Positions 5,834 through 49,818 of a stretch of 51,805 nt of DNA are shown here, piece after piece. The notes beneath the pieces are model-generated. The model saw only the letters and a program-made list of their open reading frames with translations. It was not told where the DNA came from and did not search any database. Within the stretch, counting starts at the first letter, position 1. Every line of letters begins with the position of its first letter. A program made the translations under genes and the position numbers. Source of the DNA: Mycolicibacter heraklionensis (GTDB lineage: Bacteria > Actinomycetota > Actinomycetes > Mycobacteriales > Mycobacteriaceae); contig LZME01000060.1 of assembly GCA_001673575.1 (NCBI GenBank), positions 1 to 51,805 on the forward strand, in the 5' to 3' direction.

Positions 5834-5848
5834 GATAATGTCGTTCTC
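5834..5848. promoter_or_regulatory. Candidate TetR-type operator, GAGAA-N5-TTCTC (one mismatch)
   Basis: GATAATGTCGTTCTC matches the GAGAA-N5-TTCTC palindrome seen perfectly at 16106, 32641 and 49804, with one mismatch in the left arm. It lies 23 bases before the GTG of the ligase at 5872 and 67 bases before the crotonase start at 5766, so it could control both divergent units. Confidence 0.5.
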
Positions 5849-5871
5849 ATGGCTGTTCGGAGGGCGCAACG

Positions 5872-7395
5872 GTGAGTATTTCGCTGCTGCTGGAGATGGC
5901 GGTGTCCGCCGACCCGGATCGGGTCGCGGTCGTCTCCGAGACCACCCGCTACACCACTGCGGATCTCAACGCCCTCGCCGACGCCGGCGCGGGAGTGATC
6001 GAGGAGACCGGCGCCGGCAGCGTGGCCTACGTCGGGATGGGTGGCCACATGCTGCCGCTGCTGCTGTTCTCCGCGGCGCGGTCCGGGCGCCCGTTCGCAC
6101 CGCTGAACTACCGGCTCAGCGGCCAGGCGCTGCGGGAGTTGATCGAGCGACTGCCGCGGCCGCTGGTCGTGGTGGATAAGGAATACCGCGACATGATCGG
6201 CGAGGCCGGCGATATCGGCGTCGCAGTAATCGATTCCGACACCTTCTGCGTCCGTGCCCAGACCGCCACGCCCACGGTGCAGTGGCCCGACCCCGACGAT
6301 GTGGCGGTGGTGCTGTTCACCTCGGGGACCACGTCCAAGCCCAAAGCCGTTGAGCTGACCCACAATAACCTGACCAGCTACGTGACCCAGACGGTCGAGT
6401 TCGGCTCCGCGGCGCCCTCGGATGCCGCGCTGATCTGCGTTCCGCCGTATCACATCGCCGGTGTCGGCGCGGCGCTGAGCAATCTCTACGCCGGGCGCAA
6501 AGCGGTCTATCTGCGCCGGTTCAGCGCCGCGGAATGGATCCGGCTGGTCAACACCGAGTCGGTGACCACCGCGACCGTGGTCCCAACCATGTTGGAGCGC
6601 ATCGTCTCCGAGCTCGAAGCCCGCCCAACCCCGCTGGCCACCCTGCGCAACCTCGCCTACGGCGGCTCCAAAGTGGCATTGCCGCTGGTGCGCCGCGCCC
6701 TGGATCTGCTGCCCGAAGTGGGCTTCGTCAACGCCTACGGTCTGACCGAAACCAGTTCGACGGTCGCGGTGCTGACTCCCGAAGACCACCGGACCGCCTA
6801 CGCGTCCAGCGAGGAAGCCGTCCGCAAGCGGTTGGGATCGGTCGGCCGCGCGGTGCCCGGGATCGAAGCCGTCATCCGCGACGACGAGGGCCGGGTACTG
6901 CAAGCCGGACAACCCGGCGAGCTCTACGTGCGCGGCGAACAGGTTTCGGGCAAATACACCGGTATCGGATCGGTGCTCGACGCCGAGGGCTGGTTTCCCA
7001 CCCGCGACATTGCCGTGCTCGACGAGGACGGCTACCTGTTCATCGTTGGACGCTCCGATGACACCATCATCCGGGGCGGGGAGAACATCGCCCCCGCCGA
7101 GATCGAGGACGTACTGGTCGAGCACCCCGAGGTCCGCGACGTCGCGGTGGTCGGCGCACCCGACCCGGAGTGGGGGCAGATCATCGTCGCGTGCGTGGTG
7201 CCGGCACCGGGTGCGTCACCGGATTCCGAGGCACTGCGCAAGTATGTTCGACAGCAGCTGCGAGGATCCCGCACCCCCGACCGGATCGTCTTCCGGTCGG
7301 AGTTGCCGACCACCCCGACCGGCAAGGTACTACGCCGGGAACTCGTCTCTGAAATCGACGCACTGCAAACCGCCAATGCCGAAGGGGCGCAATGA
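5872..7395 (+). CDS. Acyl-CoA synthetase (AMP-forming, FadD-type)
   Basis: This 507-residue ANL-superfamily ligase makes acyl-CoA from acid, ATP and CoA. The P-loop-like A3 motif is VLFTSGTTSKPKAVELTH (about residue 148), with serine in place of the usual second glycine. Other marks are the NAYGLTE adenine/aromatic motif (about 287), the hinge region GRSDDTIIRGGENIAPAEIE (about 390) and the catalytic C-terminal lysine in TPTGKVLRREL (about 484). The GTG start has GGAGGG eight bases upstream. The stop overlaps the next gene (ATGA). The preferred acid cannot be told from sequence. A divergent crotonase and the GAGAA-N5-TTCTC site lie immediately upstream. Confidence 0.92.
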   Translation: MSISLLLEMAVSADPDRVAVVSETTRYTTADLNALADAGAGVIEETGAGSVAYVGMGGHMLPLLLFSAARSGRPFAPLNYRLSGQALRELIERLPRPLVVVDKEYRDMIGEAGDIGVAVIDSDTFCVRAQTATPTVQWPDPDDVAVVLFTSGTTSKPKAVELTHNNLTSYVTQTVEFGSAAPSDAALICVPPYHIAGVGAALSNLYAGRKAVYLRRFSAAEWIRLVNTESVTTATVVPTMLERIVSELEARPTPLATLRNLAYGGSKVALPLVRRALDLLPEVGFVNAYGLTETSSTVAVLTPEDHRTAYASSEEAVRKRLGSVGRAVPGIEAVIRDDEGRVLQAGQPGELYVRGEQVSGKYTGIGSVLDAEGWFPTRDIAVLDEDGYLFIVGRSDDTIIRGGENIAPAEIEDVLVEHPEVRDVAVVGAPDPEWGQIIVACVVPAPGASPDSEALRKYVRQQLRGSRTPDRIVFRSELPTTPTGKVLRRELVSEIDALQTANAEGAQ

Positions 7396-7703
7396 TCAAG
7401 TCCGGCACCCGCCTGAAGAGTCAGGTCTGCGACACCCAGGTCATCGTCGTCAAGACCGCCGACAGCCTCGATGATCTGCGCGCCGGCGGCGCCCCGATGG
7501 TGCCGCTGGACGCCGACACCCCGGCGGGCGAAAACAGCGCAGCACTGGACCCGGACTTCTCCGGCGGTGCGGTGATGGGCAAGCGCTACGTCGACGAGGC
7601 GGGCGCCGAGGTGCTGGTGACCAAGGCCGGCGCCGGAAGCTTGAGTATCGGTACCGCGCCGCTGAGCATCAAGGAAGCCAAGCCGCTGCCGGCCAGCGAC
7701 TAG
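7392..7703 (+). CDS. Small conserved protein coupled to the acyl-CoA synthetase
   Basis: This 103-residue soluble protein has no signal peptide, no membrane segment and a single cysteine in SQVCDTQVIVVK near residue 13. The C-terminal half carries GKRYVDEAGAEVLVTKAGAGSL. It overlaps the ligase stop by 4 bases (ATGA) and so is co-translated with it. I do not recognise a named family. The tight coupling suggests a partner or substrate-handling role for the ligase product, which is inference only. It ends 4 bases before the convergent gene at 7707. Confidence 0.7.
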   Translation: MIKSGTRLKSQVCDTQVIVVKTADSLDDLRAGGAPMVPLDADTPAGENSAALDPDFSGGAVMGKRYVDEAGAEVLVTKAGAGSLSIGTAPLSIKEAKPLPASD

Positions 7704-7706
7704 CGC

Positions 7707-47958: not shown

Positions 47959-48720
47959 TCAGACACTGCCGCCGTCGGCCCGAACGATCGAGCCGGTGGT
48001 GAAGCTGGAAGCGTCCGACATCAAAAACAGTGCCGCACCGACGATCTCCGGCGGATTCCCGGCGCGCTGCAATGCGGCGGCGCCGAACGGGTTGTCGGCT
48101 TCGCCGAAATTCCACGCCTTGGAGATGTCGGTCAAGAACGGCCCGGGCATCAAGGTGTTGACCCGCACCGTGGGGCCGAACGCCTGGGCCAGTGCTTCGG
48201 TCATGACGTTCAGGCCGGCCTTGGACGCGGCGTAGGGGATGAACGACGGGTGCGGGCGCAGCGAACCGTGGGTGCTGACATTGATGATCGATCCGCGGCC
48301 GGCAGCCATCATCCGTTCACCGATCAACGCCGACAACCGAAATGGGCCTTTGAGGTTGAGGTTCACCACGGCGTCGAACATCTTCTCGGTGACGTCGGTC
48401 TGCTTGCCGTAAACCGGCGACATACCGGCATTGTTGACCAGCACGTCCACCCGACCGAACCGCTCGTAGGCCGCATCGACCAAGCCGTCGAGCTGATCCC
48501 AGCGCCCGACGTGCACCGCATAGGGCAGGGCGAAGCGCCCCGTCTCGGCCTCGATCTCGGCGGCGGTGGCCTGGCAGGTCTCGAGTTTGCGGCTGGCGAT
48601 CACCACGTCGGCGCCGCACCGGGCGGCCGCCAGGGCCATCTCACGCCCCAGGCCGCGGCTGCCGCCGGTGATCAGCACCACCCGGTCGGTCAGGTCGAAG
48701 AGCGAATCCGCATACCCCAT
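47959..48720 (-). CDS. Short-chain dehydrogenase/reductase
   Basis: This 253-residue classical SDR has TGGSRGLG (residues 19-26), IASRKLETC (favouring NADP), NNAG at about 97, INVSTHGS with the serine, and YAASK (about 164-168). It lies 1 bp after the APH-kinase gene and 22 bp before the ACAD10/11-like gene. In the levulinate (Lva) pathway an SDR reduces the 4-keto group before the kinase acts, so a 4-keto/4-hydroxyacyl-CoA substrate is a plausible but unproven assignment. Confidence 0.9.
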   Translation of the reverse strand: MGYADSLFDLTDRVVLITGGSRGLGREMALAAARCGADVVIASRKLETCQATAAEIEAETGRFALPYAVHVGRWDQLDGLVDAAYERFGRVDVLVNNAGMSPVYGKQTDVTEKMFDAVVNLNLKGPFRLSALIGERMMAAGRGSIINVSTHGSLRPHPSFIPYAASKAGLNVMTEALAQAFGPTVRVNTLMPGPFLTDISKAWNFGEADNPFGAAALQRAGNPPEIVGAALFLMSDASSFTTGSIVRADGGSV

Positions 48721-48721
48721 G

Positions 48722-49777
48722 TCAACCTCGCTTTGCCGGCAGGGAACGGGCGAGTTCGGCTGCGGCGCCGATCAACTGTGGGATCATCGGGCCCATGGCG
48801 GCAGCGATCGTCGGGTCGACCCGGTTACCGGTGACCGAAGCGGCGTAGGTCTTCTCCAGCACGATTCCCAGCTTCCAGTTGGCCAGCACCAGGTAGTAGT
48901 CGATGTTCTCGGTGGACAGGCCGCTGACCTGCTCGTAGCGCTCCAGCAATTCCGATCGGGTCGGCATACCCGCGAGGTCGGCGTAATAGCCTTGGGTGCG
49001 CGGGTTTTCGCCGTCATAGCCCAGCAGCGCCCAGGCCAGGTCGAGCAGCGGATCGCCGATGGTCGTCATCTCCCAGTCGATGATCGCGACGAGCTTCGCG
49101 GGTGCGCCGTGGGCATACATCACGTTGGCGAACTGGTAGTCGCCGTGCATGATGCCCGGCGTGTAGCGTGCCGGCCGGTTGCGGCGCAGCCAGTCCGCGG
49201 CCTCGTCCAGGCCCGGTAGATCGCGTACTCGGTAGCTGTCCAAGAAGGCCAGCCAGCGGTCCACCTGGCGCTCATGGAAGCCGTCCGGGCGGCCGAACCC
49301 GTCGAGCCCCTGTGCCCGCCAGTCCACTCGGCCGAGGCGGGCGGCGCCCTCGACCAGTTCGAAGGCCAGGCCGCGGCGAGCACTCAGATCCGCGTCGTAC
49401 GGCGGCGGCCAGGCGTTGCCGGTCGAATTCCACCCGTCCACCTCGGCCATCACGTAAAACGGTGCGCCGAGCAGCTCGCCGCTGTCGTCGGCGGCGATCA
49501 ACCGGGCGTGTGGGACGTCGGTTCCCGACAGCGCCCGCACCAGTCGGATCTCGCGCCGCAACCCGTCGATGCGGGCGGCGTCGGCCCGCGCTCCCGGCAT
49601 TCGCAGCACCATCGTGGCCTCGCCGCGACGAACCCGGTACAAGGTGTTCTGCGAGCCGCCGCTGAGCGGTTCCAGCTGCGGCAGCTCGCCCTGGCCCGGT
49701 GAGTCGGGGGCACCATGGGCATCGAGCCATCGCCCTAATTGGGCGGTGTCAAGCCGTGCCCCCTGTCCGTCCGCCAT
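48722..49777 (-). CDS. APH-family acyl-CoA kinase, ACAD10/11 N-domain-like (LvaA-like)
   Basis: This 351-residue kinase has [21 protein letters not shown] and [10 protein letters not shown] (N-lobe), [10 protein letters not shown], the catalytic loop [17 protein letters not shown] (about residue 215) and [23 protein letters not shown]. The DWExxTIGDPLxDLA motif is that of the kinase domain of human ACAD10/11 and of bacterial LvaA, which phosphorylate the 4-hydroxy group of acyl-CoAs. ATG 49777 is chosen (GAGGTG just upstream); the frame extends further without a binding site. It heads an operon with SDR, ACAD10/11-like dehydrogenase, TetR and oxidoreductase; a perfect operator-like palindrome lies 27 bases upstream. 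Confidence 0.9.
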
Positions 49778-49803
49778 CGCATGCACCTCGCAATCTCTGT
49801 GCA

Positions 49804-49818
49804 GAGAATAGCGTTCTC
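49804..49818. promoter_or_regulatory. Candidate TetR-type operator, perfect GAGAA-N5-TTCTC
   Basis: GAGAATAGCGTTCTC lies 27 bases before the kinase ATG at 49777, in the 189-bp gap behind the ferredoxin reductase gene. Same arms and spacing as at 16106 and 32641, so the operon 49777-45062 probably shares their regulator. Confidence 0.65.

Follow-up and report, generated by a model that had tools for sequence, protein, structure and literature searches.

The analysis of a 51,805-nucleotide stretch of the Mycolicibacter heraklionensis genome (contig LZME01000060.1 of assembly GCA_001673575.1, hereafter the window, which is contig C60 of the 161 contigs of this 4.72-Mb assembly and has a G+C content of 0.683) has revealed a 15-bp palindrome, GAGAATNNNATTCTC, that is very probably, to judge from the sequences compared, the operator of a TetR-family repressor controlling a conserved catabolic regulon. 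Two paralogous genes for this putative repressor are present in the genome, one in the window (position 32781) and another on contig C95. The assignment is built on computational results concerning the sites, their positions at promoters, their conservation and their co-occurrence with the TetR gene. It would provide an operator and a candidate repressor for a large conserved catabolic gene set in most sampled mycobacterial genomes; with the operator the extent of the pathway could be traced in any genome, and through the TetR protein the inducer, and hence the natural substrate, might be found.

An earlier note on this window had described five sites related to GAGAA-N5-TTCTC, and all five were recovered at the coordinates and with the mismatches given there, three of them perfect (16106, 32641 and 49804) and two imperfect (5834 and 33624). 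The window contains three perfect matches to GAGAANNNNNTTCTC, whereas none appeared in 100 dinucleotide-preserving shuffles of it. When up to two mismatches were allowed, 13 matches were found against 8.9 expected and 10 of the 100 shuffles attained this number, so that the two imperfect sites are not significant by sequence alone and need other evidence, namely conservation. According to the gene calls made for this analysis, the distance from the site edge to the start codon is 23 and 68 bp at 5834, 46 bp at 16106, 31 and 125 bp at 32641, 34 bp at 33624 and 27 bp at 49804; the proposed range of 23-68 bases thus holds on every side except the TetR side of 32641.

Conservation in related genomes has been found for both kinds of site. 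The imperfect site at 5834 (GATAATGTCGTTCTC) is letter-identical upstream of the ligase gene in all six closest homologue loci (proteins 84-97% identical), with its first base 29-44 bp from the start, and was found in none of 19 other ligase homologue loci, one of which (L175) has two other matches with two mismatches. Of 14 Mycolicibacter TetR loci, ten have the site at 33624 (GAGAATGTGATTTCC) unchanged and four have it with a single different base; in all 14 the counterpart of the 32641 site is of the form GAGAA-N5-TTCTC and is placed at -140 or -141 relative to the TetR start. Counterparts of the other two sites were matched by distance, not by flanking genes: for 16106, five of six relatives have a perfect GAGAATNNNATTCTC site at a distance of 14-18 kb from TetR, the sixth (G073) having GAGAA-N5-TTCTC with a different spacer; for 49804, GAGAA-N5-TTCTC is present 16-18 kb on the other side of TetR in all six. 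In two of seven more distant genomes (G057 and G108) a perfect site adjoins the orthologue of the gene behind 49804.

Genome-wide, 11 perfect GAGAA-N5-TTCTC sites were counted and none of the reversed pattern used as control, about one perfect site per 4.7 Mb being expected by a hand estimate from the G+C content of the window. The window contains three of them, a stretch of 83 kb on contig C95 another six, and contigs C105 and C115 one each. Nine of the 11 are upstream of catabolic start codons, and the remaining two are located inside an open reading frame with an uncertain start (L020:8736) and over the start of secY. The perfect sites cluster in catabolic loci, and the random scatter named by the earlier note as a refuting outcome was not observed. 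The earlier proposal of a single regulon with a shared operator at a minimum of four promoters is supported, the regulon being larger than four promoters. The common form GAGAATNNNATTCTC fits eight of the 11 sites, and among the 221 distinct GAGAA-N5-TTCTC sites in the loci collected, the arms of which were fixed by the search, T at the sixth base and A at the tenth were found in 84%. Matches with two mismatches occurred at 44 other places of the genome, compared with two in the control; those without conservation were not accepted as sites, some being other palindromes such as GCGAATCGAATTCGC. When 23 candidate places were compared with the gene calls, 16 proved to be intergenic or located at the edge of a gene, six were within called genes and one was at the secY start; a 24th was outside its locus and was left out.

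Two of the perfect sites deserve separate mention. On contig C105 (L022:11384-11398), the operator GAGAATGGTATTCTC is placed between a fatty-acid ligase gene and a coenzyme A (CoA)-transferase/carboxylase/acyl-CoA dehydrogenase operon, the latter read as of the leucine type, and this sequence or its complement recurs in 6/6 Mycolicibacter-type genomes, as a match of the sequence itself and not of its flanks. On contig C115 (L023:8685-8699), the overlap of GAGAAGAGTGTTCTC with the secY start is probably a coincidence, and this place was set aside as a site, although the 15-mer (GAGAACACTCTTCTC) or its complement is also found in 6/6 of these genomes.

The occurrence of the operator followed that of the TetR gene. 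In a genus survey of 148 genomes, 121 had a close TetR and 117 of these at least two perfect sites, compared with only one of the 27 genomes without a close TetR (two of the 27 having distant homologues). In a family survey of 201 genomes, TetR was present in 46, belonging to nine genera, and 39 of these had at least two perfect sites, as did 25 of the 32 TetR-bearing genomes outside the genus of the window; among the 155 genomes without TetR none had two sites and 12 had one. One genome scored as lacking TetR (G070) has two TetR fragments. Fisher tests of co-occurrence gave 1e-23 and 8e-35, values that are not true probabilities because the genomes are related. A single perfect site was present in six TetR-bearing genomes of the family survey, all outside the genus, and in three of them (G328, G299 and G280, from two other genera) this sole site lies about 80-125 bp upstream of TetR. 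Absence of conservation at orthologous promoters, named by the earlier note as an outcome that would count against a regulon, was thus not what was found, as the sites recur there and track TetR across genera.

The product of the 32781 gene, proposed previously as the candidate regulator controlling its own promoter, matches the TetR_N helix-turn-helix domain (PF00440) with 31.4 bits against a cut-off of 24. The C95 paralogue is 79% identical to it over 216 residues, with an almost identical helix-turn-helix region; both genes have an operator upstream, and the paralogue shares the operator and the genus-wide neighbourhood, so the proposal is supported in an amended form that comprises two proteins. 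Contigs were scanned for TetR relatives, 257 being found and 80 kept, and the best operator match was sought in the 300 bp upstream of each gene. This match was perfect at 65 loci, had one or two mismatches at 14 and three at one (M. tilburgii). The 14 loci correspond to the Mycolicibacter window-type copy, in which GAGAA-N5-TTCTC has varied inner bases, and the operator starts mostly 136-141 bp before the TetR start (range 126-149), the perfect ones mostly at about 137 bp. The closest relatives of the 32781 protein are those of Mycobacterium sp. UM_WGJ (98% identity) and then of Mycolicibacter species, and a search among plasmids gave no match. Its structure model is all-helical and matched 46 PDB entries at E<=0.001, mostly titled TetR or FadR regulators.

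It is improbable that another regulator of the cluster, for instance the TetR encoded at 8994, binds the operator and that the 32781 TetR is merely a target. An 8994-type TetR was found in 39 of the 201 family genomes, a set that almost coincides with that of the 32781 type, because the genes are inherited together. When 15 candidates per genome were scored, the 8994 type had no match in G177, G262 and G226, which carry six, four and two sites, respectively, and all have the 32781 type; in the window, no site within two mismatches is located just upstream of the 8994 gene, and the sole sites of G328, G299 and G280 precede a 32781-type TetR. The 8994 TetR was consequently rejected as an equal candidate. 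Binding by the 46030 TetR, by an IclR regulator (L018:6334) or by a further TetR (L017:11085) is very unlikely. The 46030 gene belongs to the APH operon that follows site 49804, and the site next to the IclR gene has perfect counterparts in G020 and G082, but a 46030-type TetR was found in just 13 of the 201 genomes, compared with 39 genomes with at least two sites, and it was rejected on this count. Neither of the alternatives that the earlier note had named, 8994 and 46030, was therefore retained.

The sites were also considered in relation to promoter elements. In 64 of 88 reduced sites TANNAT is found at the operator centre on at least one strand, which would favour sigma-factor promoter elements in place of an operator, and chance palindromes could account for about one perfect site per 4.7 Mb, of which the secY-start site may be an example; nevertheless, the sites are palindromic in both arms, family genomes without TetR have none or one, and promoter elements of a sigma factor would not follow the presence of a single TetR, so this explanation can hardly be correct. 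The promoter set comprised 94 reduced sites, with 99 orientations having TANNAT inside the operator and 89 others. A TTG that begins 18 bp ahead of the operator, leaving a 17-bp spacer to the hexamer, was found in 27 of the 99 TANNAT orientations and in three of the 89 others; in the TANNAT orientations, other offsets gave 1.6 on average and 10 at most. The 27 matches come mostly from two promoter families and are therefore not independent. In these two families the -10 hexamer is inside the operator and is separated from TTG by 17 bp, an arrangement that suggests repression through -10 occlusion.

From these data we infer a mechanism of binding, repression and release in which a dimer of the 32781-type TetR would bind the 15-bp palindrome overlapping the promoter and, in at least two promoter families, would cover the -10 hexamer and block RNA polymerase. 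About a dozen promoters, that of TetR itself included, would be repressed in this way until a pathway intermediate, probably an acyl-CoA thioester, releases the repressor, and the genes then expressed would encode the uptake of a polycyclic terpenoid- or steroid-like substrate, its activation with CoA, its oxygenation and its beta-oxidation.

The flanks of 51 perfect sites were read in seven other genomes (G034, G020, G108, G082, G090, G057 and G028), chosen from those with listed places, and orthologues were defined by at least 50% identity with the site within 350 bp. Orthologues of genes that bear sites in M. heraklionensis adjoin 38 of the 51 sites, counting three just behind TetR. A site was found beside TetR and beside the L017 amidohydrolase gene in 7/7 genomes, beside the L019 acyl-CoA dehydrogenase and L021 ligase genes in 6/7 each, and beside the window APH gene in 2/7; the loci were picked around sites, and these counts therefore show the genes present there and not how often the promoters carry sites. 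In the nine non-Mycolicibacter TetR loci mapped, one block unites the genes that are split here between C60 and C95, and for this reason the Mycolicibacter layout with two TetR genes looks like the result of a split and a duplication.

Several observations weigh against the assignment of GAGAATNNNATTCTC to this TetR. Co-occurrence partly reflects the inheritance of one gene cluster, as the 8994 TetR nearly co-occurs too. Four of the 121 genus genomes with a close TetR have fewer than two perfect sites, and in the family survey G241 has TetR and no perfect site, G220 and G235 have their single site and TetR on different contigs, and the single site of G294 is not among the places listed. G147 has eight sites and no close TetR; this is a 700-contig assembly in which a contig with the neighbouring genes ends 94 bp past an operator, about where TetR would be expected to start, which does not constitute proof. 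Thirteen of the 51 sites are away from the orthologues mentioned, five of them representing a shared promoter of thiolase and short-chain dehydrogenase/reductase (SDR) genes. To these are added the dependence among the TTG matches, the absence of a clear -35 at the other promoters and the poor quality of the structure model (mean pLDDT 68.5), which is too weak for inference on a ligand pocket.

The features of the window and the C95 paralogue are listed in the table. Pfam agrees with the gene descriptions given previously (AMP ligase, crotonase-like, six-gene beta-oxidation unit, ChsH2-like DUF35 and thiolase-like, APH kinase and TetR). The 8994-9608 TetR gene and two neighbours without Pfam matches (7707-8997) were present in 39 of the 201 family genomes.

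Table. Putative operator sites, candidate regulators and associated genes.
Feature	Position	Strand	Context or basis
TetR-family regulator, 216 aa, probable repressor and candidate operator binder	32781..33431	+	Pfam, upstream operator, co-occurrence
TetR paralogue on contig C95	L020:15935-16588		79% identical to the 32781 protein
Imperfect operator GATAATGTCGTTCTC	5834..5848	.	Between divergent crotonase-like (4822-5766) and AMP-ligase (5872-7395) genes
Perfect operator GAGAATAACATTCTC	16106..16120	.	Before first gene of six-gene beta-oxidation unit; 2 bp past end of thiamine pyrophosphate (TPP)-enzyme gene
Operator GAGAATGGTCTTCTC	32641..32655	.	Between divergent crotonase and TetR genes
Imperfect operator GAGAATGTGATTTCC	33624..33638	.	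Precedes DUF35/thiolase-like unit
Operator GAGAATAGCGTTCTC	49804..49818	.	Before APH-kinase operon
Crotonase-domain protein divergent from ligase	4822..5766	-	Pfam
AMP-binding acyl-CoA ligase	5872..7395	+	Pfam
Another TetR with almost the same genome distribution, less favoured as binder of this operator	8994..9608	-	
Six-gene unit: acyl-CoA dehydrogenase, SDR, CoA-transferase III, crotonase, thiolase, acyl-CoA dehydrogenase	9792..16060	-	
Enoyl-CoA hydratase (crotonase), divergent from TetR	31828..32610	-	Pfam; orthologue beside TetR operator in G020 and G082
ChsH2-like DUF35 (OB fold) protein	33673..34089	+	Pfam
Thiolase-like protein that may act with the DUF35 protein as an aldolase (putative role)	34103..35257	+	Pfam
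APH-kinase operon: APH kinase, SDR, acyl-CoA dehydrogenase, second TetR (46030-46641)	46030..49777	-	

Across the genome, genes beside or behind the sites encode CoA ligases, acyl-CoA dehydrogenase pairs, crotonases, SDRs, cytochromes P450, aldehyde dehydrogenases, a Rieske oxygenase and a ferredoxin reductase, and an aldehyde dehydrogenase gene that has a one-mismatch site at a distance of 180 bp is followed by Mce-domain genes. On contig C95, Pfam identified two tandem amidohydrolase-fold genes and a Rieske ferredoxin gene (L019:12826-15487), the amidohydrolases matching 6m1w/6m2i, which we take to be AibH1H2, at E values of about 1e-31 and 1e-50, with 8sm7 as the best match. The L020 amidohydrolase matches DitZ (8uyr, E 2e-112) and PtmU3. 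The L018 unit, whose site has two mismatches here and is perfect in G020 and G082, includes a KstD-like flavoprotein (7p18, E 1e-121) and an HsaD-like hydrolase, and the names MhpA/MhpB in this unit are a reading of the sequences. According to PMC7782822 (PubMed Central, PMC), the AibH1H2/AibG metallo-monooxygenase has two amidohydrolase-fold subunits and a Rieske ferredoxin in a gene order like that of L019:12826-15487, a comparison of genes only, and PtmU3 is a diterpenoid-biosynthesis hydroxylase acting on CoA-ligated substrates.

Because of the CoA ligases, acyl-CoA dehydrogenase pairs, cytochromes P450 and DitZ- and AibH1H2-like proteins among the targets, together with the KstD- and HsaD-like proteins and the role of PtmU3, our best guess for the substrate of the regulon is a polycyclic terpenoid- or steroid-like compound, a proposal with about an even prospect of being right. 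A wider reading, put forward tentatively and less likely than not, would make this the master regulon of an undescribed polycyclic-isoprenoid degradation in most mycobacteria and in relatives from eight other genera of the family, with import by Mce proteins, metallo-oxygenases of the amidohydrolase fold that attack CoA thioesters, and rings desaturated by a KstD-like and cleaved by an Mhp-like route; the ancestral cluster would have been split in two in Mycolicibacter, each part with its own repressor copy, and the leucine/methylcrotonyl-CoA carboxylase operon would have been recruited. Likely amidohydrolase-fold oxygenases within a regulated pathway would help to place that young enzyme class.

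Known regulators of related processes were compared with the present candidate. KstR is likewise of the TetR type and represses a large regulon for lipid/steroid catabolism, and its operator, which we take to be TNNAACNNGTTNNA, was rejected because the consensus found here is without AAC/GTT arms, in agreement with the earlier view that the motif is not that of KstR. The KstR motif is described as a 14-bp inverted palindrome and the KstR2 operator as AnCAAGnnCTTGnT, also of 14 bp and with three sites per genome (PMC3068626). The KstR2 regulon is similar in having a TetR-type repressor, a short palindromic operator, autoregulation and conservation across actinomycetes, although binding is predicted in our case, and its sites are at divergent catabolic promoters, mostly 22-82 bp from the starts, as here (PMC3068626). 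Unlike it, the present operator is of 15 bp, with more sites and other genes, and AnCAAGnnCTTGnT was rejected on account of its different arms, since the 221 distinct sites give GAGAATNNNATTCTC; this comparison was made by operator and not by protein sequence.

KstR3 of Mycolicibacterium neoaurum is encoded in the operon atf1-chsH4-chsE6-kstR3, and its deletion changed only seven genes (PMC10398937). By gene neighbourhood, not protein sequence, it resembles the window in that TetR adjoins DUF35 and aldolase genes (here 32781, 33673 and 34103); there is no acyl-CoA dehydrogenase gene between the window DUF35 and thiolase-like genes next to TetR. Homologues of these two proteins with more than 45% identity were not found within 10 kb in the nine non-Mycolicibacter TetR loci mapped. 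The M. smegmatis C-19+ steroid cluster was also considered (PMC5962712, PMC5960168), as was the location of kstD2 beside kstD3 and kshA in M. neoaurum (PMC5960168); no kshA-like gene was noticed among the proteins annotated here, a statement that includes no sequence comparison with the C-19+ cluster. Both in sequence and in fold, FadR-type TetRs that bind acyl-CoA (Bacillus, Thermus; some solved with acyl-CoA) belong to the closest solved structures, although this similarity is weak (best E 2.4e-7 by sequence) and FadR regulates fatty-acid genes according to the entry titles. A TetR-controlled catabolic regulon is thus a system of a known kind, and this instance of operator and regulator appears undescribed in the open-licence literature searched, with no description of operator, regulator or pathway among the PMC matches listed. 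A search with the motif letters, TetR and Mycobacterium led to PMC4757040, whose matching passage contains only 8-letter predicted Rv0081 sites, and PMC4482099 presents motifs for 30 mycobacterial TetRs as figure logos whose letters could not be read.

Two minor observations concern the operator and its distribution. In a contig binned in an Acidobacteria metagenome-assembled genome (L087, JAKIXW010000219.1), a perfect operator accompanies the gene for a TetR of 80% identity; this is likely a mis-binned mycobacterial contig. The operator flanks from -12 to -8, and their mirror positions, contain a weak T/C-rich half-site that resembles TTCTC about one helical turn outside the operator, with T at -11 and A at -2, which is possibly the site of a second dimer or a promoter element.

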